Origin: a virus
IMG/VR virus record: IMGVR_UViG_3300032087_004618
Location: 1 to 21,216 of that record
Strand: one strand, 5' to 3'
Length of the DNA stretch: 21,216 bases
Shown here: positions 2,041 to 21,175 of the stretch, one piece after another
Layout: each line of letters begins with the position of its first letter
Numbering within the stretch: position 1 is the first letter of the stretch
Made by a program: the position numbers and the translations under genes
Notes under the pieces: model-generated
Database searches by the model: none
Told to the model about the DNA's origin: nothing
What the model saw: only the letters and a program-made list of their open reading frames with translations

Positions 2041-3441
2041 TCAATCCCTCCCAGGGCCAGCGCTGATGATCTTCACGCGCTTCAGTTGAGCGATGGGGCC
2101 GGCGCCCGCGCCCGCGGTGTAGTTGATGCCATGGAGCCCGACGTAGACCTCGGACCCAAAGTTCATATCTTCGGACACGCCGACGCCATTGCTCTCGCCG
2201 AAGCTTTGCACGTAGACGTCTGCGTCTGCAGGGTCAGGAACACCCGTGAAGAGCGTCGTCCCGCGGCGCCAGTAGGTGAAGACAATCGTCCCGCCCTCGA
2301 CGACATAGGCGCAGACGTAGTCCTGCGGCAAGGTCGCCCCGCTCGCTTGATTCGTGCCGAAGCTATAGGCGACGTTGCCTGGGTAGTCCTGGGCGCGCTC
2401 GTTCCGCAGGTCGGAATCGACGACAAGGCACGTCCAGTTGTGGCCGCTGCCACTCTGCCGAGGGCGCCCGTCCTCGCCGAACATCGACCCGATCGATTCG
2501 AACTGCTTCGATCCGATGCTCTGGATGCGGTACTGCATGATGACAACGACGACGTCGGCTGCCCAATCGACCGCGGTTGTGTCGAGCGCAAAGCCACAAT
2601 GCGCCCACGTGTAGGAACCCGACGCCAGCTCGGCTTCAAACTCCAGACCGCCCGAGCCGATCGACGCGAGCAGGTTGCTTGTCCCGCTGACGAGTCCGTC
2701 GCCGATCCGCATCGTCCCGATCGGCGTCGTCCCGTCGCTCTCGTAGATGACGTCGCCGTCGGCGAGTGTGGCGTCTGCGGTCGCCGTCGTGAGGTCGATG
2801 TCGTAGTGAGTGATCACCGACGCCGCCGGGTAAATGGACGTCGTCGCGGTGTCGGTCTCGCCCTCGGAGTCGGTGACGGTGAGCTCGGGGATGTACGTCG
2901 AGCCGGCGACCGCGGTAAAGCTGGGCGTCGCCGTCGAGGCTCCGGTGAGCGTCGCCGTCGCCGGGCTGTTGCTCGCCCAGGTCCAGGAGTAGGACGCGAT
3001 CGTGCGACCCGCGACCGCGGTCGAGGCGGAGCCGTCAAGGTTGACCGTCCCGCCCGTCTGCTGCTGCGTCGCGCCCGCGTTGGCCGTCGGCGCCGCCGAT
3101 GCGACCTCGACGACCGCGCGGCCGCCTGCAGACCCGTCCGCATTCGTGCCCGTGTAGTCGATGACGTAGGTCCCCGCTGCGTCGGGCGCGGTGAGCGTCA
3201 CGTCGAGCGACGGCGAGCTGTTGGCGACCGTCGCGGTGTGACCGCTCGGGCCATCCACAATCGACGCCGACGAGCTCGTCAGCGCGCCGCCGGAGTTGGT
3301 GAAGCTGAGCGTCGGGTCGGCGTCGCCGAGGGTGATCGAGGACACCGACGGGTCGCCGATGACGGGCGGATTCGCGCCGGCCGGCGTCGAGCCGCCGCCC
3401 ATGTCCGTCGGCGATGCCGGGTAAAAGCTCGGGCTCGCCAT
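2041..3441 (-). CDS. Tail fibre or appendage protein with Ig/PKD-like domains
   Basis: A 466-residue protein low in Cys and rich in Thr, Ser, Gly and Ala, typical of extended beta structures on virions. Residues ~27-112 look like an Ig-like beta sandwich (TYVIDYTGTNADGSAGGRAV at its end). Residues ~116-203 look PKD-like, with NAGATQ near the start, NLDGSAS, ASYSWTW and ELTVTDSEGETDTATT. Residues ~210-466 form a separate aromatic-rich C-terminal domain (TYWRRGTTLFTGV, VYVGLHGINYTAGAGAG), possibly the receptor- or glycan-binding head. The gene is in the last tail position before lysis, where host-recognition fibres are common. The function is inferred from composition, domain pattern and position. 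The start follows the previous stop by one base (TGACATG). Confidence 0.65.
   Translation of the reverse strand: MASPSFYPASPTDMGGGSTPAGANPPVIGDPSVSSITLGDADPTLSFTNSGGALTSSSASIVDGPSGHTATVANSSPSLDVTLTAPDAAGTYVIDYTGTNADGSAGGRAVVEVASAAPTANAGATQQQTGGTVNLDGSASTAVAGRTIASYSWTWASNSPATATLTGASTATPSFTAVAGSTYIPELTVTDSEGETDTATTSIYPAASVITHYDIDLTTATADATLADGDVIYESDGTTPIGTMRIGDGLVSGTSNLLASIGSGGLEFEAELASGSYTWAHCGFALDTTAVDWAADVVVVIMQYRIQSIGSKQFESIGSMFGEDGRPRQSGSGHNWTCLVVDSDLRNERAQDYPGNVAYSFGTNQASGATLPQDYVCAYVVEGGTIVFTYWRRGTTLFTGVPDPADADVYVQSFGESNGVGVSEDMNFGSEVYVGLHGINYTAGAGAGPIAQLKRVKIISAGPGRD
2046..2052 (-). promoter_or_regulatory. Ribosome binding site deciding the ATG start at 2038
   Basis: GGGAGGG on the minus strand with a seven-base spacer to ATG 2038. 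It lies inside the last codons of the upstream fibre gene, whose TGA stop (2041-2043) falls within the spacer. Confidence 0.6.
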
Positions 3442-8846: not shown

Positions 8847-10862
8847 CTACCTCCTGCCGGGAATGCGGCCCGCGCGCCGCTTGATCAGCCCGTAACGGTC
8901 CGGGGCCCGAAGCGGGTCTCGCCCGTAGCGGCCGCGGTGGCTGTCGGTGTCGCGGATCAAGACCTGCGTCCCGCCCGAGCCGATGCCGGCCCGCTGCATC
9001 TGCCGGACAAGGTCGCCCTCGTCGCGGCCTGCAACGACCAGGTCGCCCGGTGCGAAGCTTGCGGTCATGCCGCTGTAGCCGACGCGCTGCAGACCGGGCG
9101 TGTCTGCGAAGGTCGGCTTCTGGCTTGCGATCATCGCGACCTGGATGCCGGTCTGCGCGGCCACGAGGCTCGCGATCGCCAGAGACGCCGGGTACGGGTA
9201 GTCGGCGAAGGCGCGGGTCGCGGCAGCTGCGCCGCTCATGATCGCCTGCGCCAGCGAGACCGCCTTGTAGAGCTTGAAGGTCTGCAGCGCGGCATCGCGG
9301 TTCGTTTCCGAGAGCGTCTGCGAGCGCTGCAGAAGCGCGGCCGCAGAGGTCGAGGCGAGGTTGTCGATCGCGTTGTAGAGACCGGCTTGCACGCGGCGCC
9401 GCTCTTGCAGCCGCGCCATCTCCTTCTGATGCGCCTCCTCCTCGGCCTGCTCTTGCCTGCGCGTCAGCTCGGCGAGCTCCTCGGCCTCCTCGCGTCTGCG
9501 CTGGCGACGCAGCTCTGAGAGCTCGGCGTCGTACTCGTCCTGCGTTGCTGCGCGCGCCTGCTCGGCGACCGCACGGTTGCCGCTGACGAGCTCGAGCTCC
9601 GCGATGCGGTTCAGCTGCTTTTGGTACTCCGCGGTCAGCTTCTCCTCGCCCTCGAGGATAGCCATCGACGCCTTCTCGGTGATCGCCTGCAGCTGCTCGA
9701 CCGCCTTCTCTCGCTCTTTGATCTCTGCAGTCGGATCGGCTGCGCTGACGTCCTGGCGCGAGCTCGGGACGATGAACCGCTCGCCGCCGAGCGCTGCGCC
9801 TGCGCCGCGCGCGCGAAGCTCGCCGACGTTGCGCCCGAGCTTGACGACCTCCTTGTTGGCCTCCTTGATCGCGTTGACCGTCGTCATGATCAAGCCGCGG
9901 TCGCCGAAGGTGCCGCCTCGCGACAGCTCGACCAGGCTGCGGCCGACCGACTTGAAGTCGAGGTCTACGATGCCTTCGAAGACGTCGGCGACGAGCCCAA
10001 ACTGCCGTTCGAAGTAGCCGAAGAACTGCTCGAAGGCGACGGTAGCCGCGCGGAGCGCGCCCGCGACGACGATCGGGAAGTTGTCGAGGCCCAGGGCGTC
10101 GGAGAGGACAGCCTTCGCGCTGTCGAGCTCCATGTTGAGAATCGCCATGTCGCGCTGGTACTGCGCGGCCGCATCGGCAGCGGCCCGCGTCGCGATGGCG
10201 CTCTGGCCTGCGAGAGAGACGAACGACTCGAGCGCGGCAGGGTCGCCGAGGGCTTGGAGGAGGTAGGTGCCCTGCCTGCCGAAAAGCTGCGTAGCCGCGG
10301 CCGCCTTGTCGGTCTCCGAGGACAGGCCGCCGATCGCCTTGATGGAGTCGCGGAACACTTCGTCGGCGTCGCGCAGCGTCCCGTCGGCGTTGGTCACGTT
10401 GACGCCGAGCGCGCGGAAGGCGTCGGCTTGCTTCTTAGAGCCGGCCTGCACATCGCTCATCGTCTTCGGCAGCCGGCCGAGGATCGACTCGATCTTGCTG
10501 AAGCTCACGCCCGACCCATCGGCGGCCACCTTGAGGCCTGCGATCGTCTCGCGGGCGACGCCGCTCCGGGTCGAGAGGTCGGTGAGGTTGTTTCGCGCGT
10601 CGGCGACCGACTGCGCCATCATCCCAAGCCCGACGACCGCGCCCGTCGCCGCGGCGCCGACAGCTGCCAGCGATGTCGAGAAGCCCTTCGCGTCGCGGCG
10701 CCCGCGCTGGGCGGCCCGCTGCGTCTGCCGGGTGGCCTTGTTGAGCGCCGACGTTGCCTGCCGGACCTCGGCCGCGGTCAGGTCCGGGATTTGCTTGAGC
10801 TTTCTTCTGATGTCGCCGATGTCGGCGGTGTACGTAAGCGAGACGCGGTCGGATCGTGCCAT
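8847..10862 (-). CDS. Tail tape measure protein
   Basis: A 671-residue, mostly helical protein. An N-terminal helical region with basic patches (residues ~1-60) precedes a hydrophobic Gly/Ala segment (~66-86, AAVGAAATGAVVGLGMMAQS). The phrase SGVARETIAGLKVAADGSGV (~100-120) is typical of tape measures. A long charged coiled coil runs ~380-495 (EEAEELAELTRRQEQAEEEA), followed by a hydrophobic helix pair (~535-585) and a Gly-rich C-terminus (GYSGMTASFAPGDLVVAG). These proteins set tail length and are ejected with the DNA; at about 0.15 nm per residue, 671 residues would give a tail near 100 nm. Its place after the tail chaperone and before the large tip proteins agrees. GAGGAG lies seven bases before the ATG. 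Confidence 0.92.
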   Translation of the reverse strand: MARSDRVSLTYTADIGDIRRKLKQIPDLTAAEVRQATSALNKATRQTQRAAQRGRRDAKGFSTSLAAVGAAATGAVVGLGMMAQSVADARNNLTDLSTRSGVARETIAGLKVAADGSGVSFSKIESILGRLPKTMSDVQAGSKKQADAFRALGVNVTNADGTLRDADEVFRDSIKAIGGLSSETDKAAAATQLFGRQGTYLLQALGDPAALESFVSLAGQSAIATRAAADAAAQYQRDMAILNMELDSAKAVLSDALGLDNFPIVVAGALRAATVAFEQFFGYFERQFGLVADVFEGIVDLDFKSVGRSLVELSRGGTFGDRGLIMTTVNAIKEANKEVVKLGRNVGELRARGAGAALGGERFIVPSSRQDVSAADPTAEIKEREKAVEQLQAITEKASMAILEGEEKLTAEYQKQLNRIAELELVSGNRAVAEQARAATQDEYDAELSELRRQRRREEAEELAELTRRQEQAEEEAHQKEMARLQERRRVQAGLYNAIDNLASTSAAALLQRSQTLSETNRDAALQTFKLYKAVSLAQAIMSGAAAATRAFADYPYPASLAIASLVAAQTGIQVAMIASQKPTFADTPGLQRVGYSGMTASFAPGDLVVAGRDEGDLVRQMQRAGIGSGGTQVLIRDTDSHRGRYGRDPLRAPDRYGLIKRRAGRIPGRR
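8850..8855 (-). promoter_or_regulatory. Ribosome binding site deciding the GTG start of the 1148-residue tail protein
   Basis: AGGAGG on the minus strand, six bases before GTG 8843. It partly overlaps the end of the tape measure gene, whose TAG stop is at 8847-8849. No ATG lies near the start of the frame, so this site fixes the start. Confidence 0.65.
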
Positions 10863-10865
10863 GGT

Positions 10866-11534
10866 TCAGCTCCTCGCGGCTCGGTTCAGGTCGTCTTGTA
10901 GCCGCTCGGCGATCTGCTTGGCAGCCCGACGACCAGGCGTGCGAATGAACGCGGACCAGATGCTCTTGCCGGCCTTCGCGGCGTTGATCGCGCCCGTGCC
11001 GTGCCGCGTGAAGAGGTTGGTCCGGTAGAGCTGGATCAGCCCAGCGGCAGACCGCGTCCCTCGCAGCGGCGGAAGCGTGATGTTCTGCGCCTCGGCGAGC
11101 TCGCGCGACTTGTTCAGGAACGCGTAGAGACGGACGCCGTCGGCTTCGATGCTCGCGGCGTACCGCTCGGCCTCGGCGGCGATGGCCTCCACCTTCTCGA
11201 TCTCGCGCGCGAGGCTGGCCCGGTCTCGGCGGCTGTAGCGCACGAACCACGCGTAGCCGCGCCCGTTGGGGCCTCGAGCGGTGTTCTCGATGCCGGCCTC
11301 GATCTGGTTGCCTCTCAGCCCGTGAAACAGGCGGAAGCTGCCGCGGCTGTTGCGGCTCTTGCGATAGCGGACCGGCCAGCGCGCCTCGGCGCCCTGCATG
11401 ATCGGCCGGAGCTCGGTCGAGGTCTCCTTGATGAACGCCGAGGGCAGGCCGCCTGCGACCTTGTCCAGCGTGCGGACGAGCGCATCATCGTCGAGCGTGA
11501 TTGCGGCGCTGCCTTTGCTGAACCTTCGCGGCAT
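10866..11534 (-). CDS. HK97-gp10-like tail completion or minor tail protein (tentative)
   Basis: A 222-residue protein between the chaperone and the tape measure. The N-terminal half has features of gp10-like tail-completion proteins: a helix, then WPVRYRKSRNSRGSFR and GIENTARGPNGRGYAWFVRY. A charged helical stretch (~105-145, RASLAREIEKVEAIAAEAER) looks like an insertion relative to the usual ~120-150 residues. The end (GRRAAKQIAERLQDDLNRAA) is a helix typical of the family's C-terminus. The match is by pattern only. The ATG has GAGGG six bases upstream. The first 50 bases overlap the -1 frame of the frameshifted chaperone, which ends at 11485. Confidence 0.55.
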   Translation of the reverse strand: MPRRFSKGSAAITLDDDALVRTLDKVAGGLPSAFIKETSTELRPIMQGAEARWPVRYRKSRNSRGSFRLFHGLRGNQIEAGIENTARGPNGRGYAWFVRYSRRDRASLAREIEKVEAIAAEAERYAASIEADGVRLYAFLNKSRELAEAQNITLPPLRGTRSAAGLIQLYRTNLFTRHGTGAINAAKAGKSIWSAFIRTPGRRAAKQIAERLQDDLNRAARS

Positions 11535-12050
11535 GTTGCACCCTCAATCGTTGGTCAGCGAGCAGTAGAGCCTGGGTCTCTCGATCGAGGGTGTCCCACC
11601 ATGCCGGCTCCTGCCCGTACTCGCGGCACAGCTCCAGGACCGCGCGGACTAGTCCGCCGAGTCCTCGCGGTCTGGAGAGAAATCCGCGGCCGTCGAGACC
11701 TCCTGCTCAGTCACCGCAGAGACGACCACCCATGCCCGAGCTTTCGCGAGCTGCTCGCCGAGCGCGGCGAGGGTCATGCCCGACGCCGGGTAGAGCTCGT
11801 CGAGCACAGCCTCCCCGTAGTCTGCGACGTCGCTGCCGAGCTTGTGCTTGCGCGGCCGCTTGCGAGCAGGCCACTTCACGTCTTCCGGCCAAGCGGCGCG
11901 GAGGCACGCCGCCGAGACGGCGAGCACGTAGCTCGGGTCCTGGGCGCGCGGGTCCTCGACGTCGATCGCCAGCCCGGCGGCTCGCGTGATGCCGACGGGT
12001 TGAAGCGTCGCGGTGATGTCGCCGATCGTGACCTGTACGGGGTCGGGCAT
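11485..12050 (-). CDS. Predicted -1 frameshift product of the tail assembly chaperone (GT-type)
   Basis: The -1 frame is open from just after a TGA at 11707-11709 to a TGA at 11485-11487, filling the otherwise empty 11535-11648. Its translation is protein-like, with LELCREYGQEPAWWDTLDRE followed by TQALLLADQRLRVQHA, a pattern like the T domains of other phage chaperones. It has no ATG or GTG start before its last stretch, so separate initiation is unlikely. A -1 shift within 11652-11706 would join it to the upstream gene; a slip at TTC 11679-11681 would give 188 residues. The site is not a textbook heptamer. Frameshifting in this gene pair is widespread in long-tailed phages; its use here is inferred. 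Confidence 0.65.
11649..12050 (-). CDS. Tail assembly chaperone, short (G-type) product
   Basis: A 133-residue protein between the tail-tube gene and the tape measure, the standard place for the lambda G/GT-type chaperone that coats the tape measure during tail assembly. It begins MPDPVQVTIGDITATLQPVG, has a basic stretch (WPARKRPRKHKLG) and a helical second half (GEAVLDELYPASGMTLAALG), and ends in an acidic tail (SPDREDSAD) at TAG 11649-11651. AGAGGA lies seven bases before the ATG. Family assignment rests on position, size and the overlapping -1 frame rather than on strong sequence recall. Confidence 0.7.
   Translation of the reverse strand: MPDPVQVTIGDITATLQPVGITRAAGLAIDVEDPRAQDPSYVLAVSAACLRAAWPEDVKWPARKRPRKHKLGSDVADYGEAVLDELYPASGMTLAALGEQLAKARAWVVVSAVTEQEVSTAADFSPDREDSAD
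11676..11682 (-). other. Best candidate frameshift site, T TTC TCT
   Basis: Within the only window where a -1 shift can succeed, T TTC TCT is the only heptamer in which the P-site tRNA re-pairs well (TTC to TTT, both Phe); the A-site codon TCT to CTC would mismatch. AGGAGG at 11699-11704 lies 16 bases upstream and could act as an internal stimulatory Shine-Dalgarno element, as in dnaX, though the distance is longer than usual. Confidence 0.35.
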
Positions 12051-12091
12051 GGGTGGTTCCTCTTCGGTGGGGTCAGGGGGTCAGGGTCGGA

Positions 12092-12571
12092 CTACCGCGA
12101 CGAGACGACGGCGGTCCCGTCGAAGCTCATGGGCCCGACGACCTGGAAGGTGAAGGCGATCGTGCTGGTGTCGCCCTCGGTGATCTCAATCGACGTCAGG
12201 ACCGCGTCCTCACCCGTGATGTCGCGGGTCTCGGCGCCGTAGTCGAAGCTGAAATCGAAGTCGTTGGCAGCGTAGTCGCCGATATCGACGGTCGTCGAGG
12301 TGAAGGTCGCGGTCTCGCCGAGGGCCTGGATCTGGAACGCCGCCGAGGGGCCGGCGAGGATCGCAGTCACGCTGATGGTCGGGTAGGACCGCTGGCCCTT
12401 CCGCAGACCCACGGTCGCGCCCTGGGACTGCGAGACGACGAGCTCGCGGCCGTCGGGCACCAGGCCGGAGACGGTCAGGTCGCCCTGCGACATGAGCAGG
12501 GTCGCCGAGTTGGCGTTGTCGTCGGTCAAGGTGAAGCTGCCGTCGGTGAAGTTGGCGGGGATGTTCGACAT
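12092..12571 (-). CDS. Major tail (tube) protein
   Basis: A 159-residue beta-rich protein encoded just before the tail chaperone, where siphoviruses encode their tube subunit. It begins MSNIPANFTDGSFTLTDDNA and contains LRKGQRSYPTISVTAILAGP, then the acidic strand patterns NDFDFSFDYGAET and VLTSIEITEGDTSTIAFTFQ; the alternating strands fit the tail-tube/Hcp-like fold. Length is in the usual range for short tube proteins. AAGGAG lies seven bases before the ATG, a strong site that suits a protein needed in many copies. The identification rests on size, composition and position; the neighbouring 164-residue protein is the main alternative. Confidence 0.75.
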   Translation of the reverse strand: MSNIPANFTDGSFTLTDDNANSATLLMSQGDLTVSGLVPDGRELVVSQSQGATVGLRKGQRSYPTISVTAILAGPSAAFQIQALGETATFTSTTVDIGDYAANDFDFSFDYGAETRDITGEDAVLTSIEITEGDTSTIAFTFQVVGPMSFDGTAVVSSR

Positions 12572-12587
12572 GGGGTGTCTCCTTGCG

Positions 12588-13082
12588 CTACTGCGCGACG
12601 ATTAGCCAGAGGGTGTAGGTGGAGGAGGTCGCGCCGGTCTCGGTGACCCTGAAATTGCAATCGGTCGTCACGTCGAGACCGGCCGGACCGAAATCGACGC
12701 CGAGGGTCTGACCTGCCGAGAGGACGACGCCGTGGTTGTTGTCCTCAAAAAAGTTGATCGAGTTGCTGGCGTGACCGTCGAGCGTGACCTGACCCGCTAC
12801 GCACTTGATGCACAAGCCTTTGAGCTCGTCGGCGTCGATGGTCTGCCCGAGCACGTCCTCGAGCCCGCCAGCGATCGCCAGATCGTAGAGCTTGAAGGTG
12901 CCGCTCGCGAGCGTGTTCGTCTCGAGGTAGACGCGGTCGACCTCGCCCGTGCCCGTGCCCTGTCGCCAGCCGCGGCCGCCGGGCGCGTTCTCGAGAGCGT
13001 GGCCGATGGTCTGCGAGTGCGGCGCGTCGGGCGCCAGGTCGGCCTGCGCGGTGATCTGCAGTCGTGCTGAGAGCGTCGTCAT
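12588..13082 (-). CDS. Beta-rich virion protein, 164 residues (tail or decoration)
   Basis: I cannot name a family. The 164-residue product begins MTTLSARLQITAQADLAPDA and contains TFKLYDLAIAGGLEDVLGQT, two nearby cysteines in LKGLCIKCVAG, and NNHGVVLSAGQTLGVDFGPA followed by strands to the C-terminus. The pattern suggests a single beta sandwich. It lies between the tail-terminator-like gene and the tube protein, so a second tube, capping or decorating protein is plausible. The ATG follows the previous TGA by one base (TGACATG), with GAGGG six bases upstream. Confidence 0.65.
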   Translation of the reverse strand: MTTLSARLQITAQADLAPDAPHSQTIGHALENAPGGRGWRQGTGTGEVDRVYLETNTLASGTFKLYDLAIAGGLEDVLGQTIDADELKGLCIKCVAGQVTLDGHASNSINFFEDNNHGVVLSAGQTLGVDFGPAGLDVTTDCNFRVTETGATSSTYTLWLIVAQ

Positions 13083-13083
13083 G

Positions 13084-13512
13084 TCAGGCCCTCGGGATGC
13101 GCGTCTGGACAGTGAGCGTCGTCGTCAGCCACTCGGCCGAGAGCGCGTCAATGTCATAGGAGACCGACCGGTAGCGGACGCCGTTCGGGCCGCGGTAGCT
13201 GTCGAGCCACGCCATCGCGGCACGGGTCGCCGCGTGAATGCGCGCTTGTCCCATGCTGTCGGAGTCGGGCGTGAACCGGTGCACGATTAGCAGTTGCGAG
13301 TCGTGCACAAGGTGCGGCGACGTCGAGGTCGCCGGCCCGAGGTCGAAGAACACCTCGAGGTGCTTCGTCGCGCCGCGGTCCGCGTCGATGTACCGCGCCT
13401 GCGAGAAGCGGTCGCTCTTCGCGTAGCTGAAGTCGGAGCAGTCGATGCCCGCAAGCCCGTCGTAGACCGCCTCGATCACAGCCCGGTAGGAGCTCGTCGC
13501 ATTCAGGTCCAC
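13084..13512 (-). CDS. Tail terminator-like protein
   Basis: A 142-residue protein with an N-terminal helix (SYRAVIEAVYDGLAGID), a strand with HLEVFFDLG, then LLIVHRF and a helix (ARIHAATRAAMAWLDSY), ending in strands (EWLTTTLTVQTRIPRA). This alpha/beta order and size fit the tail terminators of long-tailed phages, which cap the finished tube; its position shortly before the tube protein agrees. The GTG at 13512 is chosen because upstream residues in this frame are Arg-rich antisense-like sequence lying within the connector gene; it overlaps that gene by ten bases. The ribosome binding site is weak, so coupling to the upstream gene is likely. No ATG is available in frame near this start. Confidence 0.6.
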   Translation of the reverse strand: MDLNATSSYRAVIEAVYDGLAGIDCSDFSYAKSDRFSQARYIDADRGATKHLEVFFDLGPATSTSPHLVHDSQLLIVHRFTPDSDSMGQARIHAATRAAMAWLDSYRGPNGVRYRSVSYDIDALSAEWLTTTLTVQTRIPRA

Positions 13513-14258
13513 AGCGGCCGCCCAACCGCAGAGAGCGAGATCACAGGCGAGGCGCCGCGGCGAACGCCCGCCGCCTGGTCGTCGTACTGAAACTTCATGC
13601 GCGCCGCGACGGTCTTCATGTCGAAGTACAGCCGCTTGTTCTGCTCGGCCCACGTCGAGTCGGGACCGAAGCTGATGGTCCCGACGCAGAGCTGCAGCGC
13701 GCGGGTCAGCAGCCAGTCGCGGTAGCCCGTGATCTCGCGCACCTTCCAAGGCTCGCGGCCGTCGTCGATCAGCCGCCGGAGGAGCTCGAAGTAGGCCTCG
13801 TCAATCTGCGGCTGCCAGCCCTCGCCGGAGCCGCCGCGGTCGGTCGCGCCCTGCGACTGCGGCACGCGGTGCTCGAGCTCGGGGACGCGAGCGTAGAGGT
13901 CGCGCTCGCTGATGACGTTGGGCGGCACGTACTGGACGAGGTAGGCCGACTGCCTGTAGGTCGGGTAGACGACGCCTGAGAACGTCAGCGTCCACAAGAC
14001 CGTCCAGCCGGCGCCCAAAGTCTCGGACGCAGCCGGTGCAACCGTGTAGGTCGCGGTCGAAGAGGAGACCACCACCGGCTGGTCCGAGAGAAGGTCGGTG
14101 CCATCCGGCCGCGTGATGGTGATCGTCCCGGAGTCGGGCGCCACGAGACCGCCGCCCGACCCATGCCGGATCGGTGCGGTGATCGTCTGCGTCGCGCCTC
14201 GCTCCAGAAAGTACGGAGCGGGGCGCGAAAACGCGTACGTGGCGGCCCGAATCGCCAT
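13503..14258 (-). CDS. Head-tail connector or adaptor-like protein with an N-terminal beta domain
   Basis: A 251-residue protein with two parts. Residues ~1-110 are beta-rich (SGTITITRPDGTDLLSDQPV, then GAGWTVLWTLTFSGVVYPTY), like a small Ig-like domain. Residues ~115-225 are helical (EAYFELLRRLIDDGREPWKV, YRDWLLTRALQLCVGTISFG), like the helical head-completion or adaptor proteins that bind the portal ring. Position between capsid and tail-terminator genes supports a connector role. A fusion of a beta domain with a connector-like helical domain is not the commonest form, so the function stays tentative. TAACATG joins it to the upstream gene with a one-base gap. Confidence 0.6.
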   Translation of the reverse strand: MAIRAATYAFSRPAPYFLERGATQTITAPIRHGSGGGLVAPDSGTITITRPDGTDLLSDQPVVVSSSTATYTVAPAASETLGAGWTVLWTLTFSGVVYPTYRQSAYLVQYVPPNVISERDLYARVPELEHRVPQSQGATDRGGSGEGWQPQIDEAYFELLRRLIDDGREPWKVREITGYRDWLLTRALQLCVGTISFGPDSTWAEQNKRLYFDMKTVAARMKFQYDDQAAGVRRGASPVISLSAVGRPLWT

Positions 14259-14259
14259 G

Positions 14260-14688
14260 TTAGCTCACGACGTCGTAGCGAATGACGATGTCGACAACGC
14301 CGTCGTCGAGGGCCGTGGTGGCGCCGTCGCCGAGGTTGGCGCCGACAGCGGTGAACTTGGCCTTCACGAGCACGCCCGAGGCGGTCGGGTTGGCGCCGTC
14401 GTTGCGGTACTGCCCAGCCGCGGGCCCGAAAACGTCGGTGCTCGTGATGAACGCGTCAGCGGTCGCCGCGGTGCCGACCTCGACGGTGAGGTCGGAGATC
14501 GAGCCCGCGTCGGAGAAGGTCGTGATCAGATCGACGATGCAGAGGCTGATCTGCGCGCCGGTCGGCAGGGTGACGAGATCCACCGTCTCGGTCAGCGCAG
14601 CCGCGGTGAGCTCGGAGAAGTCCACACGCACGCGGGCTTCCTGGGTGTAGTCGCCGACGGGACGGTTGCTGCGGTAGGCGGTGGGCAT
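14260..14688 (-). CDS. Capsid decoration-like beta protein, 142 residues
   Basis: A 142-residue protein starting MPTAYRSNRPVGDYTQEARV. It then follows a repeating strand pattern (ELTAAALTETVDLVTLPTGA; ISDLTVEVGTAATADAFITS; DGVVDIVIRYDVVS). I recall similar short proteins of the form ELTAA...TLPAGA...VGTTATPTAF near capsid genes of marine phages, annotated only as structural. Two genes downstream of the coat gene, a decoration or head-stabilising role is plausible. The ATG at 14688 is preferred over GTG 14709 because AAGGAG (14696-14701) stands seven bases before it, and the longer version would swallow that site. Confidence 0.65.
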   Translation of the reverse strand: MPTAYRSNRPVGDYTQEARVRVDFSELTAAALTETVDLVTLPTGAQISLCIVDLITTFSDAGSISDLTVEVGTAATADAFITSTDVFGPAAGQYRNDGANPTASGVLVKAKFTAVGANLGDGATTALDDGVVDIVIRYDVVS

Positions 14689-14692
14689 TCTG

Positions 14693-15385
14693 CTACTCCT
14701 TGGCGGCACGCTTCCGCGCCGGCTTCGGTGGTGCGACCTCGTCTCGGAGGTCGACGGGGACGTGTTCGGGCGGAAGGTGGGAGAGGAGCGCCGAGAGCAT
14801 CCGCTGGCCCCGCGCGTCGTCGCGGTCCTGGGCGGCCTGGATGCGACGCAGCACGGGCGCGACAGCCATCTCGACCTGCATGTCGATCAGGCCGTCGGGC
14901 GAGACGAGGGCGAGGCACTGTCGCAAGAAGGCCTTCCAGCCCTCGCGGTCGTGCTCCCAGGAGACGAGGTGGCCGAGCTGCTTCGGTCGGTGCCACGCGT
15001 CGGCGTGGTAGGTGACCGGCCGCCCGCGGCTGATGCCCTCGTAGCGGTCGAGGTAGGCCGACAGCGGAGCGCCGGCCCTCGACTCGCCGAAGGCTGTCGT
15101 CTCGATGTCGTGGGGAACGGGCGTGAAGCCAGCGCCCATGAGGTTCGACACAAAGCCCTGACCCTGACCACGGCCCCCGGCGTTGCCGTTGCTGCCCGGC
15201 GTGTGCCACGCCTTGGCGAGCTCGGGAAGCACTTCGCCGTCGAAGCACATGAGGCGGGTCGGCGAAACGCAGTAGGTCCACGGGTCACGCGGGCCCGGCA
15301 GCTGGAGCTGAGCACGGGAAAGCGCGTTGCCTCTGGCAAAAGACGGTCCAGCGAGACTCGGCCCGCCGCTCGGGGTGATGGGCAT
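14693..15385 (-). CDS. Uncharacterised phage protein between coat and decoration genes, 230 residues
   Basis: I do not recognise a named family. The 230-residue product has a Pro/Gly/Ser-rich N-terminus, a segment with DPWTYCVSPTRLMCFDGEVL, a Gly/Asn-rich loop (HTPGSNGNAGGRGQGQG), and a central part with PVPHDIETTAFGESR. Residues ~145-205 are helical (EGWKAFLRQCLALVSPDGLI, then EMAVAPVLRRIQAAQDRDDA). It ends in a basic tail (PPKPARKRAAKE). The two-part build and location suggest a head-associated structural or assembly protein. AGAGGAGG precedes the ATG by about six bases. The 77 bases up to the coat gene stop (15386-15462) are GC-rich and show no clear promoter or terminator. Confidence 0.6.
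   Translation of the reverse strand: MPITPSGGPSLAGPSFARGNALSRAQLQLPGPRDPWTYCVSPTRLMCFDGEVLPELAKAWHTPGSNGNAGGRGQGQGFVSNLMGAGFTPVPHDIETTAFGESRAGAPLSAYLDRYEGISRGRPVTYHADAWHRPKQLGHLVSWEHDREGWKAFLRQCLALVSPDGLIDMQVEMAVAPVLRRIQAAQDRDDARGQRMLSALLSHLPPEHVPVDLRDEVAPPKPARKRAAKE
14696..14701 (-). promoter_or_regulatory. Ribosome binding site deciding the ATG start at 14688
   Basis: AAGGAG on the minus strand, seven bases before ATG 14688. It lies in the last codons of the upstream gene, whose TAG stop is at 14693-14695. Confidence 0.65.
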
Positions 15386-15462
15386 AGGCGCCCTCCTCTT
15401 CGGTCATGGGTGAGGGTGGCGCCGCGCCCAGCTCGAGCGCGACGCCGCCGCCGACGTCTCGC

Positions 15463-16419
15463 TCAGGAGACGTAGCGGATCGCAGCCATGCGGCCGTTCT
15501 CAGCGATCGCGACGCCGTTGTAGGCGACGGTCTCGATGCGCGAGACGCTGCCACCAGGCCGGCGAAGCTCCATGCTGTAGAAGCCAGCCTGGACCAGCGA
15601 ATCGGCCTCGCGGGGGAGGACGACCTGCTGATGCTTGCTGATGATGGCGCCGTCGGTGATCAGCAGGCCGAGATCGTCGCCGCTGTCAGTGTCCAGCTCC
15701 GAGTTCAGGTACACGTCAACGCCTCCCAGGCTGGCGACGTACGCCCCAGCGGTGGCGTTGGCGAGCAGGCCCTGGATCTGCGGAGCCATCTGCACAGCGC
15801 CGCCGAGCGACAGAGCGTCGTCGGCGAGGTCCTTCGCGCCCTTGACCGTCACGAGAGCCATCGCCCGGCCCTGAGCCGCGCCGCGGTTCTTGAGGTCGAG
15901 AATGCCCTCGTTGAGCGCGGACCACGTCAGGGGGACGCCGGTCGAGCCGATGGTGTTGGTCGCGGAGGAGGCCAGCGCGGCGATCTGGTCGACGAGGCTG
16001 TTGAGCCAGAGCCGGGTGCCTTCGTAGGCGAGCATGACCTCGACGTCGGGCCCGATCTCGCCCATGAGGAGAGACTCCTGCAGGCTGCGGGCGTAGTCGG
16101 AGACCTCGCGGGTGAACGCGCGGCGAGCCGGGGTGACGGTGACGTTCGTCGTGCTGAAGTTGGTCGCGCTGGCCTCGGTGCCCTCCGCGGTCGCGGCGAG
16201 CTTACCGGAGCCGAGGTCGGCGAAGCTCACGCCGTAGCCGTACGCGCCGAGCATCTGGCCGACACCAGCGTCGCGGGCGAGCATCGCCTGCATCACCGGA
16301 TGCGCCGCGGCTTCCATGTTCTTGTTGGCCTCGGTGAGCGCGGCCATGATCCCGCGCGCAGTCGAAGCGTTGTTTGCGTCACCGATCCCGGACTGGGAGT
16401 ACCAAGCACCTGCAGCCAT
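15463..16419 (-). CDS. Major capsid protein (HK97-fold candidate)
   Basis: A 318-residue protein encoded directly after the scaffold, the standard place for the coat gene. An N-terminal helical region (GIMAALTEANKNMEAAAHPV) is followed by a strand-rich stretch (NFSTTNVTVTPARRAFTREV), a long helix (PDVEVMLAYEGTRLWLNSLV), a central domain (MALVTVKGAKDLADDALSLG), a segment GGVDVYLNSELDTD, and C-terminal strands (SVSRIETVAYNGVAIAENGR). This order matches HK97-fold coat proteins. No maturation protease gene is visible nearby, so the scaffold may be removed without cleavage. The ribosome binding site before ATG 16419 is weak (GGATAAG). The 87 bases upstream contain a promoter candidate. Confidence 0.85.
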   Translation of the reverse strand: MAAGAWYSQSGIGDANNASTARGIMAALTEANKNMEAAAHPVMQAMLARDAGVGQMLGAYGYGVSFADLGSGKLAATAEGTEASATNFSTTNVTVTPARRAFTREVSDYARSLQESLLMGEIGPDVEVMLAYEGTRLWLNSLVDQIAALASSATNTIGSTGVPLTWSALNEGILDLKNRGAAQGRAMALVTVKGAKDLADDALSLGGAVQMAPQIQGLLANATAGAYVASLGGVDVYLNSELDTDSGDDLGLLITDGAIISKHQQVVLPREADSLVQAGFYSMELRRPGGSVSRIETVAYNGVAIAENGRMAAIRYVS

Positions 16420-16481
16420 TGTCTTATCCGTGGCATGCGCGCTGATACCCGTTTTCCGCCCGGCGGCGTGCGCTTACCTTC

Positions 16482-16510
16482 CGTCTACAGGCTGCGAGCG
16501 GTCATGTCAA
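16482..16510 (-). promoter_or_regulatory. Weak candidate sigma70-type promoter before the capsid gene
   Basis: A perfect TTGACA (16505-16510, minus strand) is followed after exactly 17 bases by TAGACG (16482-16487), which matches the -10 consensus at three of six positions but lacks the conserved final T. It overlaps the scaffold stop and lies about 60 bases upstream of the capsid start, in one of the longest non-coding gaps of the minus-strand train. The -35 could be a chance match since it includes the stop codon TGA. Confidence 0.22.
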
Positions 16511-17157
16511 CCACCGCGAGCAGCCCGCAGGACGTCGGCGAGGCTCGCGTCGGCGGGTAGCGCGTTGAGCCGATCGTTGACCGACGCGGTCTGCTTGCGC
16601 GAGGCGCCGCGGTCCACCTTCGGCGGCTGACGCGTTGCGGGCGTCGAGCTCGGCGCCGCGGCCTCGGGCATGTAGCCGAGCAGAATCCGCGGGATCTCGA
16701 CCTTGGGTGCCTCGTCAGGGTTGGCGGTGTGCGCGGCGTGCGCCTCGAGGGTCGCCGACCACCACTTCGCCGGGCTCTTGCCGCGGGTGTCCTCGGGCTG
16801 CGCCTCCCATGCCTGCCGGACGGCGACGCGGCCCAGGTCGTCTCGGATGCCAGCGTCGACGAGCGCCAAGTCTTCGGAGTGACGCGTTGCCAGCGACGCG
16901 AGCTCGGACGCGGTCTGCTGCTTGAGCCCGTCGAGCTGCGACTTGTACGCAGACTGCAGGGTCTCGAGCTGCCGCCCGAGCTCAGCGAGCTCTTCGCGCG
17001 CTTGGTTGCGCTGGTCGATGGCGCTCTTGAAGCGGTCGTAAGGCACGCGGCCGCGGCCGGTGTCCTCCAGGTCGTCGCCCGCCTCGGAGTGACGGGACAG
17101 CGCGGAAGAGACCGCGCGGGAAACGCGCTCGGCGAGGGTGTTCGGGTCGTCACTCAT
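16507..17157 (-). CDS. Capsid scaffolding protein
   Basis: A 216-residue acidic, highly helical protein between portal and coat genes. The central region (~44-95) is a coiled coil (QRNQAREELAELGRQLETLQ; ASELASLATRHSEDLALVDA). A Pro/Ser/Thr-rich linker (EAAAPSSTPATRQPPK) leads to a helical C-terminal end (VNDRLNALPADASLADVLRA), the region that usually contacts the coat in scaffolds. It would fill the procapsid during assembly and leave before DNA packaging. Its ATG overlaps the portal stop by eight bases (ATGAGTGA). A second frame covering nearly the same bases (16485-17153) is Ser/Arg/Thr-rich and is read as a shadow. Confidence 0.8.
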   Translation of the reverse strand: MSDDPNTLAERVSRAVSSALSRHSEAGDDLEDTGRGRVPYDRFKSAIDQRNQAREELAELGRQLETLQSAYKSQLDGLKQQTASELASLATRHSEDLALVDAGIRDDLGRVAVRQAWEAQPEDTRGKSPAKWWSATLEAHAAHTANPDEAPKVEIPRILLGYMPEAAAPSSTPATRQPPKVDRGASRKQTASVNDRLNALPADASLADVLRAARGG

Positions 17158-18433
17158 TGTTCAGGGTTTCCTCTTCGTCTTCGATGTCGCCCAACGCGTC
17201 GGAGACCTCTCCGCGGAAGAGCACACCGTATGGGTCTTCGTTGAGCTCGGTGCCGACTAGGTCGGCCCGGTTGCTCATGGCTGCCACGCGCCGCAACGTC
17301 TCGGAATCGAACCGCCGCAGCTCGGGGAAGGTCTTCGCGATCAAGGAGTTGAGCGCCTGGGCCTCGTAGGCCAGCGGCTCGCCGCCGGTCCGTTCGAAGC
17401 CGACGGGGAGCCCGAGGCCCGCCATCGCGGTGAGCTCGTAGTCGCGGATCGCGCGGCCCACCGCTTCCATGTCCGCAGCGGGTGAGTCCTGCCAATGCGA
17501 GCCCGGCCGGTCGGGGTCCACATCGACCCACTGGAGGATGGTCTCGGGCCCGGTCTGGATTCCGTTTTGGCCGCCCTCGGCTTCGGAGTCCAGCCCGACG
17601 AGCGCCAGGCCGCGCACGTTGCGCTGCGGATGCCCGGCGTCGCGGATGCCGCTGAGCCAGTGCGTGTAGAGAGTGCACACCGAGAGGGTCGTCTGCACAA
17701 GCGGGTCGGTCGCGTACGGGTGCCGCGTGTCGCCGACGACGACCAGGCGGTGAAACGGCGTACCGTCCGAGTAGCGCCACCAGTAGTCGTCGCCGTCGAA
17801 GGTCTGCCCGTAGAGTTCCTCGGTCTTGTCCTGCCCGTTGATCTCGGTGCGGAAGCTCGGCGCGTCGAGGTCGGACAGGTCGTAGACGTCGACCGCGAGC
17901 TCCTGCCGCCCGTCCATGGTGCGGACGCGCTCATGCCGGATGATCGTCGGCTCCATGGGATCGTGGCTGTGGTACTCGAGGTGCAGGGTGTCAGGCTTGA
18001 CGACCTCGAGGTAAACCTGACGGGCCCGCTCGCTGTAGCCAATGAGCAGCCCTGCATACCCAGCGCCGAGCCTGTATTTGTATGCCTCGCGAGCCGCCGA
18101 GATCAAGGTCGAGGGCATCGGCCGACCACCGGCCTCGCCGTAGAGCTGGACGGTCGTCCGCGCGCTCTGGTCGCCGAGCAGCGCGGCAAGCTCAGCCGAC
18201 AGCCCATCGACGAGCGGCACTGGCGAGTCGTGGGCCCGGTTGACCCGTCGCACGTACCCGAGGAGGGTGTTCCGGGTCATGTCGAGCGGCCCGAGCTGCA
18301 AGGCGCGGTTGCCGAGCTCCGCCTTGGCCCGGGTCAAGACGTCTTCGAAGTGGGCGCCGTCGAGAATCCGTACCGCGAGCTCGACCTGTTGGGCCGGCGT
18401 GCGCGCTCGCCATCCGCGGTAGCTCGACAGCAT
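17150..18433 (-). CDS. Portal protein
   Basis: A 427-residue protein immediately after the large terminase. It starts MLSSYRGWRARTPAQQVELA; the wing region contains EAYKYRLGAGYAGLLIGYSE. The C-terminal third has DMEAVGRAIRDYELTAMAGL followed by GLPVGFERTGGEPLAYEAQA, the helical stem-like phrase recognisable in many phage portals. Twelve copies would form the ring at the capsid vertex through which DNA passes. The last residues are acidic (IEDEEETLNNE). GGAGG lies five bases before the ATG, in an 11-base gap after the terminase stop. Length is at the short end for portals but acceptable. Confidence 0.85.
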   Translation of the reverse strand: MLSSYRGWRARTPAQQVELAVRILDGAHFEDVLTRAKAELGNRALQLGPLDMTRNTLLGYVRRVNRAHDSPVPLVDGLSAELAALLGDQSARTTVQLYGEAGGRPMPSTLISAAREAYKYRLGAGYAGLLIGYSERARQVYLEVVKPDTLHLEYHSHDPMEPTIIRHERVRTMDGRQELAVDVYDLSDLDAPSFRTEINGQDKTEELYGQTFDGDDYWWRYSDGTPFHRLVVVGDTRHPYATDPLVQTTLSVCTLYTHWLSGIRDAGHPQRNVRGLALVGLDSEAEGGQNGIQTGPETILQWVDVDPDRPGSHWQDSPAADMEAVGRAIRDYELTAMAGLGLPVGFERTGGEPLAYEAQALNSLIAKTFPELRRFDSETLRRVAAMSNRADLVGTELNEDPYGVLFRGEVSDALGDIEDEEETLNNE

Positions 18434-18444
18434 GGGGGCCTCCG

Positions 18445-19860
18445 TCAGTGTGCAACGCCCTCGGACATGGGGACGGCGATGTAGCGTAGTGCGTCTATAG
18501 CATGCTTCCAGGGGTCAGTCGGTGACGTCGAGCCGTTCCACTCGTTCAACGACTCGATCAGCCCGTGGCACGACGGGTCAACGGAGAAGCGCGCGGGGTC
18601 GGCGACCATCATCCGATGTAGGCACTCGGCGCCCTCCCACACCGACTGCGCGAACTTGCGCGGGGTCTTCATGAACCGCAGGGGCTTCGGTAGCTTGTCG
18701 GTCCACCCGCGTACGCGCGTGTCATGCCCGAGCACTTCGGCGAGGCTGGCCTTGAGCCGCGTGTTGCTTTTCTTTCCGCCGCGCCGGTCGCCGTGGTGGG
18801 CGCGATCGCCGACCCACTGGTCGACGTCCTCGAGGCGGAAGCCATGGGTCGCGAGGAGGTCGATGATGCCCTGGGCGTCGTCGCGGCTGTTCGTCCGGCC
18901 GTCTCCAATCCATTCGCCCAGGACATGGACCGCGCTGTAGAGGCCGCGACCGCCGCACGCGGCGAGGATGACCCGCTGTGAGCCCGGCTTGCTGCCGTGG
19001 TCGATGCCGATGCCGAGGCGCCAGCCCGCGAGCTGCTCGAGCGGCCGATGGACGACGAGCTCGCCGCGCCAGGCGGAGAAGTAGGCCGCGTCTCTCTTCG
19101 GGGTCCGGCTGCGGCCCATCCTCATGTCGGCCTCGACGCGCGAGAGCCCGTGCTCAAACTCGCCGATCTCCTGCGCGGTCATCCAAGGCAGCTCGACGAG
19201 GCCACCGCGCGGCGTGACGGCGTCGAGGGTCAATGGGACGTGGAGCTCGCCCGCCCAGGGTCGCGACGCGTCATCGACCAGCTCCCACAAGTAATCCACC
19301 CGCGCGGCCGTCCCGAGGGTCGGGGTGAAGGCCTGGTACATGCGGCCGTTCCTGCCCAGGAGACGAGGCCAAAGCTCATTGTGCACCGCCTCGGGGAGCG
19401 GCTCGTCTGTGATGACGACGTCGGCGCGCGGGCCGGCGAGGTTGCTCGCCTTGAAGGTGCCCAACCTGAGCTCGCCGCCTGCGCCTGGTCCGCGGACGAT
19501 GTCGAAGACCTGCAGCCTTTGGCCCTTCATGCCGCCGGCCTCGTAGCGGACGCCAGCCTTGAGCCAGCCCTTCAGCCGGCCCGTCATCATGTAGCGGATC
19601 GTCGAGCCGAGCTGACTCCAGGTGTTCCCGGCGAGGATGACGACCTGCGGCCCCGGCCGTTGCCAGTGAAGCGAGCCCTCGATCGCGCGGGTCGCGAGCT
19701 CGGCGAGGCCTCGGCTCTTGCCGATGCCATTCGCCCCCCAGCAGACGGTCAGCTTGTAGGGCGAGTCGAAGAGGGCCCGCTGCGGGTTGGTCCACCGCTC
19801 CGAGTGCCCGACCTGGGCGCGGCGGTCTGCGCGGTGGTCGAGGAGGAGGGCCCGCGTCAC
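18445..19860 (-). CDS. terL: Terminase large subunit (packaging ATPase and nuclease)
   Basis: A 471-residue two-domain DNA-packaging motor. The ATPase domain shows a Walker A motif WGANGIGKS (residues 41-49), a Walker B ADVVITDEP (146-154, with Asp/Glu at 152-153) and a likely coupling motif at FTPT (178-181). The nuclease domain has the RNase H-like acidic residues in GIGIDHG (Asp287), VGDRAHHGD (Asp352) and a C-terminal DPWKHAIDALRYIAV (Asp449, Asp456). The GTG start at 19860 is used because GTGA overlaps the methylase stop; extending upstream would add an Arg-rich shadow of the methylase. The N-terminus may be slightly short compared with many TerL proteins, but all core motifs are present. 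Confidence 0.93.
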   Translation of the reverse strand: MTRALLLDHRADRRAQVGHSERWTNPQRALFDSPYKLTVCWGANGIGKSRGLAELATRAIEGSLHWQRPGPQVVILAGNTWSQLGSTIRYMMTGRLKGWLKAGVRYEAGGMKGQRLQVFDIVRGPGAGGELRLGTFKASNLAGPRADVVITDEPLPEAVHNELWPRLLGRNGRMYQAFTPTLGTAARVDYLWELVDDASRPWAGELHVPLTLDAVTPRGGLVELPWMTAQEIGEFEHGLSRVEADMRMGRSRTPKRDAAYFSAWRGELVVHRPLEQLAGWRLGIGIDHGSKPGSQRVILAACGGRGLYSAVHVLGEWIGDGRTNSRDDAQGIIDLLATHGFRLEDVDQWVGDRAHHGDRRGGKKSNTRLKASLAEVLGHDTRVRGWTDKLPKPLRFMKTPRKFAQSVWEGAECLHRMMVADPARFSVDPSCHGLIESLNEWNGSTSPTDPWKHAIDALRYIAVPMSEGVAH

Positions 19861-20807
19861 GAGGCACCGCCGAAGAGGTCGCGCTGCTCGCCGCCGGCCA
19901 TGACAGCCGCCGCGCGCTCGGCACGCTCGGCCGCGAGCTCGCACGCGCGCACCGCTCGACGGTCGGGCTCGAAGCTCGTGGTCACCCACTCGCGTTGCTG
20001 CTTGCTGAAGGTCCGCTTCTGCCCGACGCGCATCGCCGAGACCTCGACCGCGTGCCAACCGCACGCGACGAGCGCGTCGATGGGGACCGCCTCGGAAATC
20101 ATCACCCGCGCGCCAGCCGCGGCCCACTGTTGCGCCAGCCGGACCACCGCCAGGCGGTCCAGGTCGTGTGCGTAGCCCGTGGTCCCGACGTAGGGCGGAT
20201 CAATGAAGACGAGCGTCCCCTCTGGCAACGGGTCGGGAATCGGCGCCGTCGTCGCGTCGTCGTGGATGGTGGCGGGGAGGCCGCCTGCGTCATGCACGCG
20301 GCGGGCCGTCTCCGGTGCAAGCGCGTTCCATGCTTCGCCCGACTGTACGCCATTGTTGAAGCCGCTCTCTGGCTCGCCTCGACGGTAGGACCACTGACCG
20401 AGCATCGTCAATCGCGCGACCTCCCGCGGATCTACAGGCGGACACCGCGCCGGCCCCTCGGCCCGCAGCCGTTCCCACAGCGCGCGGGGCTCCTCGTCAG
20501 CCCATGACCGGATGATGCGCGCCGCCTCGCGGGCAAGGTCGGCGTCCCGGTAGGCATGGAGGAGGAGCCGGACGCCGTCGTCGGGCTCGCACCACAGATA
20601 GTGCCCCGCCTTGTCGCCCGGCTCCAGCCCGGCGAGCGCGAGGATGCAGTCGGCGTAGCCCGTCTTCGCGCCCATCCGCGAGACCGGAGGACGAGCGCCG
20701 GCCCGCTCTAGTCTGAGAGACAGCGCAGCCGTCCCCGCGCAGAGCTCGACGAGCAGCGGGATTGCCGGCCGGCGCGGTGTCGGTGTCTCGCCGAAGAGCT
20801 GAGTCAC
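19857..20807 (-). CDS. D12-type DNA adenine methyltransferase
   Basis: A 316-residue protein with the N6-adenine methyltransferase signature FIDPPYVGTTGY (DPPY at 203-206) and an AdoMet-binding-like segment LVELCAGTAALSL (19-31). A third conserved-looking stretch, SRMGAKTGYADCILAL (43-58), follows motif I, whereas in Dam the Gly/Lys-rich element comes before it. I recall phage methylases with this order. The C-terminus is Ala/Glu/Arg-rich helix ending EQRDLFGGAS. The enzyme may protect phage DNA from host restriction or mark it for packaging. The GTG at 20807 overlaps the upstream stop as GTGA, and its own stop overlaps the terminase GTG, so it is embedded in the packaging operon. Confidence 0.78.
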   Translation of the reverse strand: MTQLFGETPTPRRPAIPLLVELCAGTAALSLRLERAGARPPVSRMGAKTGYADCILALAGLEPGDKAGHYLWCEPDDGVRLLLHAYRDADLAREAARIIRSWADEEPRALWERLRAEGPARCPPVDPREVARLTMLGQWSYRRGEPESGFNNGVQSGEAWNALAPETARRVHDAGGLPATIHDDATTAPIPDPLPEGTLVFIDPPYVGTTGYAHDLDRLAVVRLAQQWAAAGARVMISEAVPIDALVACGWHAVEVSAMRVGQKRTFSKQQREWVTTSFEPDRRAVRACELAAERAERAAAVMAGGEQRDLFGGAS

Positions 20808-21175
20808 GACGCCACCGCGAGCCGGAGCTGCCCGCCCTCGACGACCAGGCGGTAGCCGTGACGGGTCAGCCACTCGTGGACGTAGACCTCGAGGTCTTCG
20901 TCGGTCGCGGCCTGGGCGTCAGCGCGGACGCGCTGCTCCCACTCCTCGGGCGTCATGTCGGCCGCGGTGATGCTGGCGCGGTGTGCGGCCCGGAGCTCGT
21001 CGAGGTCTCGGCCCGCGCGCATGACGGCCCGAAGGCCTTGCACGTGCGCGACACTCCCGGGCGTCGCAGCCGAGACGCCGCGCTCGGCCTGCTCCAGCAC
21101 CCACTCCCCGCGCTCGATGGCGGAGAGGTCCACAATGCCCACAGCGCGGGGCTTTTCGATTCTTGACCGGGCCAT
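20804..21175 (-). CDS. Unknown 123-residue protein, possible terminase small subunit
   Basis: The first gene of the visible minus-strand train. The product starts MARSRIEKPRAVGIVDLSAI, has a helical middle (GEWVLEQAERGVSAA; SVAHVQGLRAVMRAGRDLDE), an acidic stretch (TPEEWEQRVRADAQAATDED), and a C-terminal mini-domain (VHEWLTRHGYRLVVEGGQLR). Small terminase subunits often lie at this point, but I see no clear helix-turn-helix or oligomerisation core, so the role is a guess from position. ATG 21175 is preferred over an in-frame TTG three bases upstream. The stop overlaps the methylase GTG by four bases. The 41 bases upstream to the window edge hold a run of seven C on the coding strand and a TATGCT that could be a -10 element, with any -35 at or beyond the edge. 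Confidence 0.6.
   Translation of the reverse strand: MARSRIEKPRAVGIVDLSAIERGEWVLEQAERGVSAATPGSVAHVQGLRAVMRAGRDLDELRAAHRASITAADMTPEEWEQRVRADAQAATDEDLEVYVHEWLTRHGYRLVVEGGQLRLAVAS

Follow-up and report, generated by a model that had tools for sequence, protein, structure and literature searches.

The tail assembly chaperones gpG and gpGT of phage lambda are the closest described counterparts of the locus analysed here. In lambda, the short gene G lies between the genes for the major tail protein and the tape measure protein and is extended in the -1 frame by T, which has no start codon of its own and runs past the stop codon of G. Slippage occurs near the end of G, at the heptamer GGGAAAG. The locus predicted here resembles lambda in its position, in its short G with a -1 T extension that lacks a start codon and reaches past the G stop, and in a slip site near the end of G. 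It differs from lambda in its heptamer, GGATTTC, in an extra gene (g222) between T and the tape measure gene and in that no sequence similarity to named chaperone families could be detected.

In plant and fungal viruses, GGAUUUU is well established as a site of slippage (GGAUUUN class; PMC4737148, PMC5009743). It is active in pea enation mosaic virus, where only the A-site tRNA re-pairs perfectly; a swap to GGGUUUU gave 112% of wild type, and two umbraviruses carry AAAUUUU in place of GGAUUUU (PMC4737148). The heptamer proposed here has the same G_GAU_UUN form, with perfect A-site and imperfect P-site re-pairing, and the replacement of GGAUUUU by AAAUUUU among umbraviruses has a parallel in one relative of the phage (L015), which has AAATTTC instead of GGATTTC. 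Unlike the phage locus, pea enation mosaic virus and the umbraviruses are translated by eukaryotic ribosomes, shift within an RNA polymerase gene and use other stimulators, and the last base of the heptamer is U in these viruses and mostly C here. The third comparable system is dnaX of Escherichia coli, which likewise combines an upstream Shine-Dalgarno-like stimulator, a heptamer and a downstream hairpin, whereas its heptamer is A_AAA_AAG, its efficiency is about 50% and it serves another gene and purpose. For phages, PRFect (PMC10885494) describes a 'twoonefour' motif in frameshift overlaps, which by its name would cover GGATTTT.

Gene neighbourhood and reading frames

The window, i.e. the whole stretch of DNA analysed, corresponds to a virus record of 21,216 bases in IMG/VR. 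All genes are located on the minus strand, the late ones in the order terminase, portal, scaffold-like gene, probable capsid, several small genes and then the tail genes, several of these names being derived from gene order only. The tail genes begin with that of the probable major tail protein (12092-12571), which was named from its position directly upstream of G and its conservation in relatives and has no family match of its own in PHROG or Pfam. It is followed by the zero-frame gene G (11649-12050), identified by its ORF and homologues and predicted to encode the short-form tail assembly chaperone of 133 aa, and by the -1 frame T (11485-11706), a putative C-terminal extension without its own start codon, recognized by an open frame and a conserved domain. 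The next gene, g222 (222 aa, 10866-11534), overlaps the end of T with its start, and the tail tape measure protein is encoded at 8847-10862. The latter matched PHROG tape-measure families (best E = 5.6e-25) and showed a weak PhageMin_Tail match under the Pfam curated cut-off.

Searches with the capsid, portal and terminase proteins, encoded within 12050-20127 of the window, against 50,697 INPHARED phage records gave no match at the cut-offs used, INPHARED searches with G and T were likewise unproductive, and a terminase profile found no relative among bacterial and archaeal genomes. On the basis of the capsid, portal and terminase results, the phage is a member of an uncultured group for which the reference collection contains no close relatives. 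At 19857-20873 of the window, an adenine-methylase-like ORF shares 271 bases with the 5′ part of the long terminase ORF; the terminase probably starts in fact near 19800, the point from which homology to relatives is seen.

The coordinates given for both frames in the original prediction all proved correct on the minus strand. The zero-frame ORF extends from 12050 to 11649 and ends with the stop codon TAG at 11651-11649, 27 nt downstream of the heptamer GGATTTC. The -1 frame is limited upstream by TGA at 11709-11707 and remains open down to TGA at 11487-11485. It contains no ATG, GTG or TTG before the TTG at 11547, near the end of T. We could thus confirm that a -1 frame without a usable start fills a sizeable hole between the genes and overlaps the next gene by 50 bases; no other gap in the gene train is as large as this hole, which measures 114 nt. 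Among the genes of this virus, 32 of 72 stop-free stretches in the -1 frame reach at least 73 codons and so equal or exceed T in length, such open frames being common in this GC-rich virus. Taken by itself, the openness of the T frame is therefore weak evidence; relatives had to be consulted, and the case rests on homology.

Conservation of both frames in relatives

Relatives were gathered by terminase searches, with a single sequence and then with a profile, and by T-profile scans, which together gave about 20 distinct IMG/VR loci with G and T. Scanning directly with the complete alignments of G and T yielded nothing, as these were too divergent. The slip position was aligned for 21 loci, and the frames, the conserved domain, the slip position and the permitted substitutions were all read from these sequences. 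Both frames are kept in a contig that is 91% identical to the window (L002/L005). The T-domain profile matched in the same -1 relation to G with E = 1e-16 to 1e-26 in L010–L012, L014–L017 and most other relatives, and more weakly in L066 and L079 (E near 0.04–0.05). Identity of T to the window ranges from 97% down to 29%, and the relatives share the pattern F-L-R-x-P...C-R-E-Y-G-Q-x-P-x-W-W...L-A-D-x-R. Homologues of G were found between the major tail protein and tape measure genes in L005, L010, L011, L012 and others. As expected for a lambda-type G/GT pair, both frames are kept as protein in the same frame relation among the relatives.

A change of frame inside a metagenome contig always raises the concern of an assembly or sequencing indel, or of gene decay, in which case the true gene would be one ORF. 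Here, the same break occurs at the same codon in contigs of many metagenomes, one of them 91% identical to the window and others below 50% identical in T. Since the break persists down to 29% identity in T, it is ancient and not an error. The probability of this explanation is negligible, and a sequencing indel was rejected because independent contigs share the break. A +1 or -2 shift was likewise rejected, as the other frame contains no conserved protein.

For the protein products, an AlphaFold model of G (mean pLDDT 85.6) consists of a beta hairpin plus helices. Fold searches gave only weak matches for G, with GT of phage N15 among them, and a weak match of T to a tail assembly chaperone of a Bacillus phage; a PDB fold search with G led nowhere. 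Neither G nor T could be assigned to a named family in PHROG or Pfam. Given the weak fold matches and the missing family match, the assignment of G and T as a putative tail assembly chaperone pair is supported mainly by gene order and frame architecture.

The probable slip heptamer

The stretch in which a shift is permitted was defined for the window and L005 and extends from -21 to +34 nt of GGATTTC. When every zero-frame heptamer within this stretch was scanned, A-site re-pairing proved feasible only at G_GAT_TTC (11679-11685, minus strand), which lies one codon upstream of the heptamer TTTCTCT (11682-11676). The latter had been regarded in the original prediction as the only reasonable site, which was not borne out, as GGATTTC is the sole site with A-site re-pairing and aligns with XXXYYYZ heptamers in relatives. 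Compared with the canonical X_XXY_YYZ, GGATTTC deviates from XXX at one base, while its A-site half TTT fits.

At the aligned position, 12 of the 21 loci contain GGATTT(C/A/T), namely GGATTTC in 10, GGATTTA in L011 and GGATTTT in L066, and the other nine contain XXXYYYZ. Five of these nine have GGGTTT(C/T), with GGGTTTC in the L017 group, L090 and L094 and GGGTTTT in L079 and L098. The remaining heptamers are AAATTTC (L015), GGGAAAC (L016), TTTTTTG (L096) and TTTTTTC (L099), the TTTTTT run of L096 and L099 being located one codon further 3′. A slip site of tandem re-pairing form (GGATTTN or XXXYYYZ) is thus found at a fixed position near the 3′ end of G in 21 of 21 loci. The base preceding the P-site codon varies in step with this codon, so that the form of the heptamer is kept while the encoded amino acid is D, N, G or F. 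A -1 frame stop codon lies immediately before GGATTTC in L014 and 6 nt ahead of the heptamer in L012, which excludes upstream shift sites in these loci. Furthermore, most of the 11 loci tested use a minority synonym as their P-site codon (for instance, GAT accounts for 11% of Asp codons in the window and GGT for 9% of Gly codons in L017). The product of the P-site codon frequencies over these loci would be 9.5e-9 if they were independent; they are related, and this value overstates the significance while the direction is clear.

A shift at TTTCTCT, as originally proposed, would occur by P-site-only slippage of tRNA-Phe. In this case the P-site re-pairing from TTC to TTT is perfect, and TTTCTC is common to the window, L005, L010, L012, L014, L015, L017, L028 and others. 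The A-site codon TCT would however move to CTC without pairing. The heptamer itself is altered in L005, L010, L011, L012, L016, L066, L096 and L098, and the relatives show TTTCTCG, TTTCTCC, TTTATTG, TTTTACC or AAACTCC at this position; it is lost in L011 (TTTATTG), L066 and L098 (TTTTACC), L016 (AAACTCC) and L096. Slippage at TTTCTCT also leaves unexplained why TTC is preceded by GAT, GGT or AAT, codons which run against the codon bias and are matched to the preceding base. We therefore consider this site very unlikely.

Another explanation is that T is translated as a separate protein by termination-reinitiation at or near the zero-frame stop codon. Homologues in which T has a start codon of its own had been named in the original prediction as evidence against frameshifting. 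A T-frame ATG at the zero-frame stop codon (TAATG, TGATG or ATGATG) does exist in L015, the L017 group, L028, L088 and L092, but the slip heptamer is retained in these relatives too, and no such ATG is present in the window, L010, L011, L012, L014, L016, L066, L079 and L093. Moreover, the -1 frame is already conserved ahead of the zero-frame stop codon. In the overlap from the heptamer to this stop codon, comparison of the window with L010, L012 and L014 gave 7 of 9 identical residues in the -1 frame versus 4/9, 2/9 and 2/9 in the zero frame, suggesting that the -1 frame is translated before the stop codon is reached. This is predicted by frameshifting and not by reinitiation at the stop codon, and reinitiation as the source of T appears highly improbable. 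The ATG codons overlapping the zero-frame stop were recorded at L015:8323-8478, L017:9191-9355 and L028:9992-10156 and in L088 and L092; in these loci, including the L017 group, a free T product made by reinitiation in addition to the fusion is possible.

Frameshifting at GGATTTC has against it that tRNA-Asp re-pairs imperfectly with GGA in the P site and that the experiments supporting GGAUUU concern eukaryotic ribosomes. The original prediction of a non-canonical signal without a textbook heptamer holds narrowly, with regard to the P-site deviation of GGAUUUN, but this class is documented (PMC4737148, PMC5009743). Judged by its sequence, GGATTTC is a member of the G_GAU_UUN slip-site subclass, and with the slip site corrected, the claim that the recoding signal is new no longer stands. 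A phage example of a GGATTT slip site was not found in the literature searched; an earlier example may exist. We tentatively suggest that GGATTTC/A with its imperfect P-site re-pairing might be the preferred tail-chaperone slip site across a group of uncultured GC-rich tailed phages, kept over GGGTTTC through long divergence, perhaps for a low frameshift rate. If true, this preference would represent a class of slip site that has not previously been clearly described for bacterial ribosomes. The 21 aligned loci with their interchangeable heptamers provide a natural series on P-site pairing versus frameshift level in bacteria. For gene finders, a useful rule in GC-rich tailed phages that have no XXXYYYZ would be to seek GGATTTN where the gene preceding the tape measure region ends.

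Proposed mechanism and stimulatory elements

The frame relation, the gene order, the conservation of both frames and the conserved shift site support the original prediction of a frameshifted G/GT tail chaperone. Very probably, a lambda-type programmed -1 ribosomal frameshift at GGATTTC yields two tail assembly chaperones. The predicted frameshift is ordinary in kind, like that of lambda G/GT, and well supported, and it represents a new member within a phage family without close reference relatives. Slippage itself, its efficiency and the roles of the stimulators and proteins are proposed as follows. Most ribosomes would translate G until they reach the TAG at 11651-11649, where gpG is released. 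A minority would pause on G_GAT_TTC (11685-11679), aided by the hairpin just downstream and by AGGAGGT, which would pair with the 16S rRNA 12 nt upstream. In the P site, tRNA-Asp would then slip from GAT to GGA, while in the A site tRNA-Phe would move from TTC to TTT, and reading of the -1 frame as far as 11488 would yield gpGT. In analogy to lambda, G may coat the tape measure protein while T recruits the major tail protein.

The Shine-Dalgarno-like sequence AGGAGGT (11698-11704, minus strand) is perfectly complementary over 7 nt to the 3′ end of 16S rRNA and ends 12 nt upstream of the heptamer GGATTTC. According to a review, the working Shine-Dalgarno distance for stimulating a -1 shift is 9–14 nt (PMC5009743). 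The 12 nt to GGATTTC are inside this range, whereas AGGAGGT is 15 nt away from TTTCTCT, outside the range, which again argues against slippage at the latter site. The importance attributed to AGGAGG (11704-11699), 16 nt upstream of TTTCTCT, in the original prediction was thus strengthened, with a spacing that suits GGATTTC and not TTTCTCT. AGGAGGT is also present in L005, L010 and L095, and most other relatives have complements of 5–8 nt at nearly the same distance. The sequence also encodes a conserved Glu-Val, and for this reason its conservation is not independent evidence.

Downstream of the heptamer, a hairpin is predicted at 11632-11677 (minus strand), with a long stem whose apical part contains the zero-frame stop codon. 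Its stability of -30.5 kcal/mol (z -4.3 versus shuffles) ranks about 6th lowest among 10,585 windows of 47 nt on the same strand. The hairpin would start 1 nt past the heptamer if fully formed and 7 nt past it if the lower six pairs are open, and in L005 changes on both sides leave the lower stem paired. It is statistically outstanding only in the window, L005, L093 and L094; most relatives have no unusual stability at this place, and a family-wide hairpin is therefore not claimed. In L093 and L094, near 3000–3060, the hairpins follow right after the slip heptamer (z -3.8 and -2.8) and are unlike that of the window in sequence.
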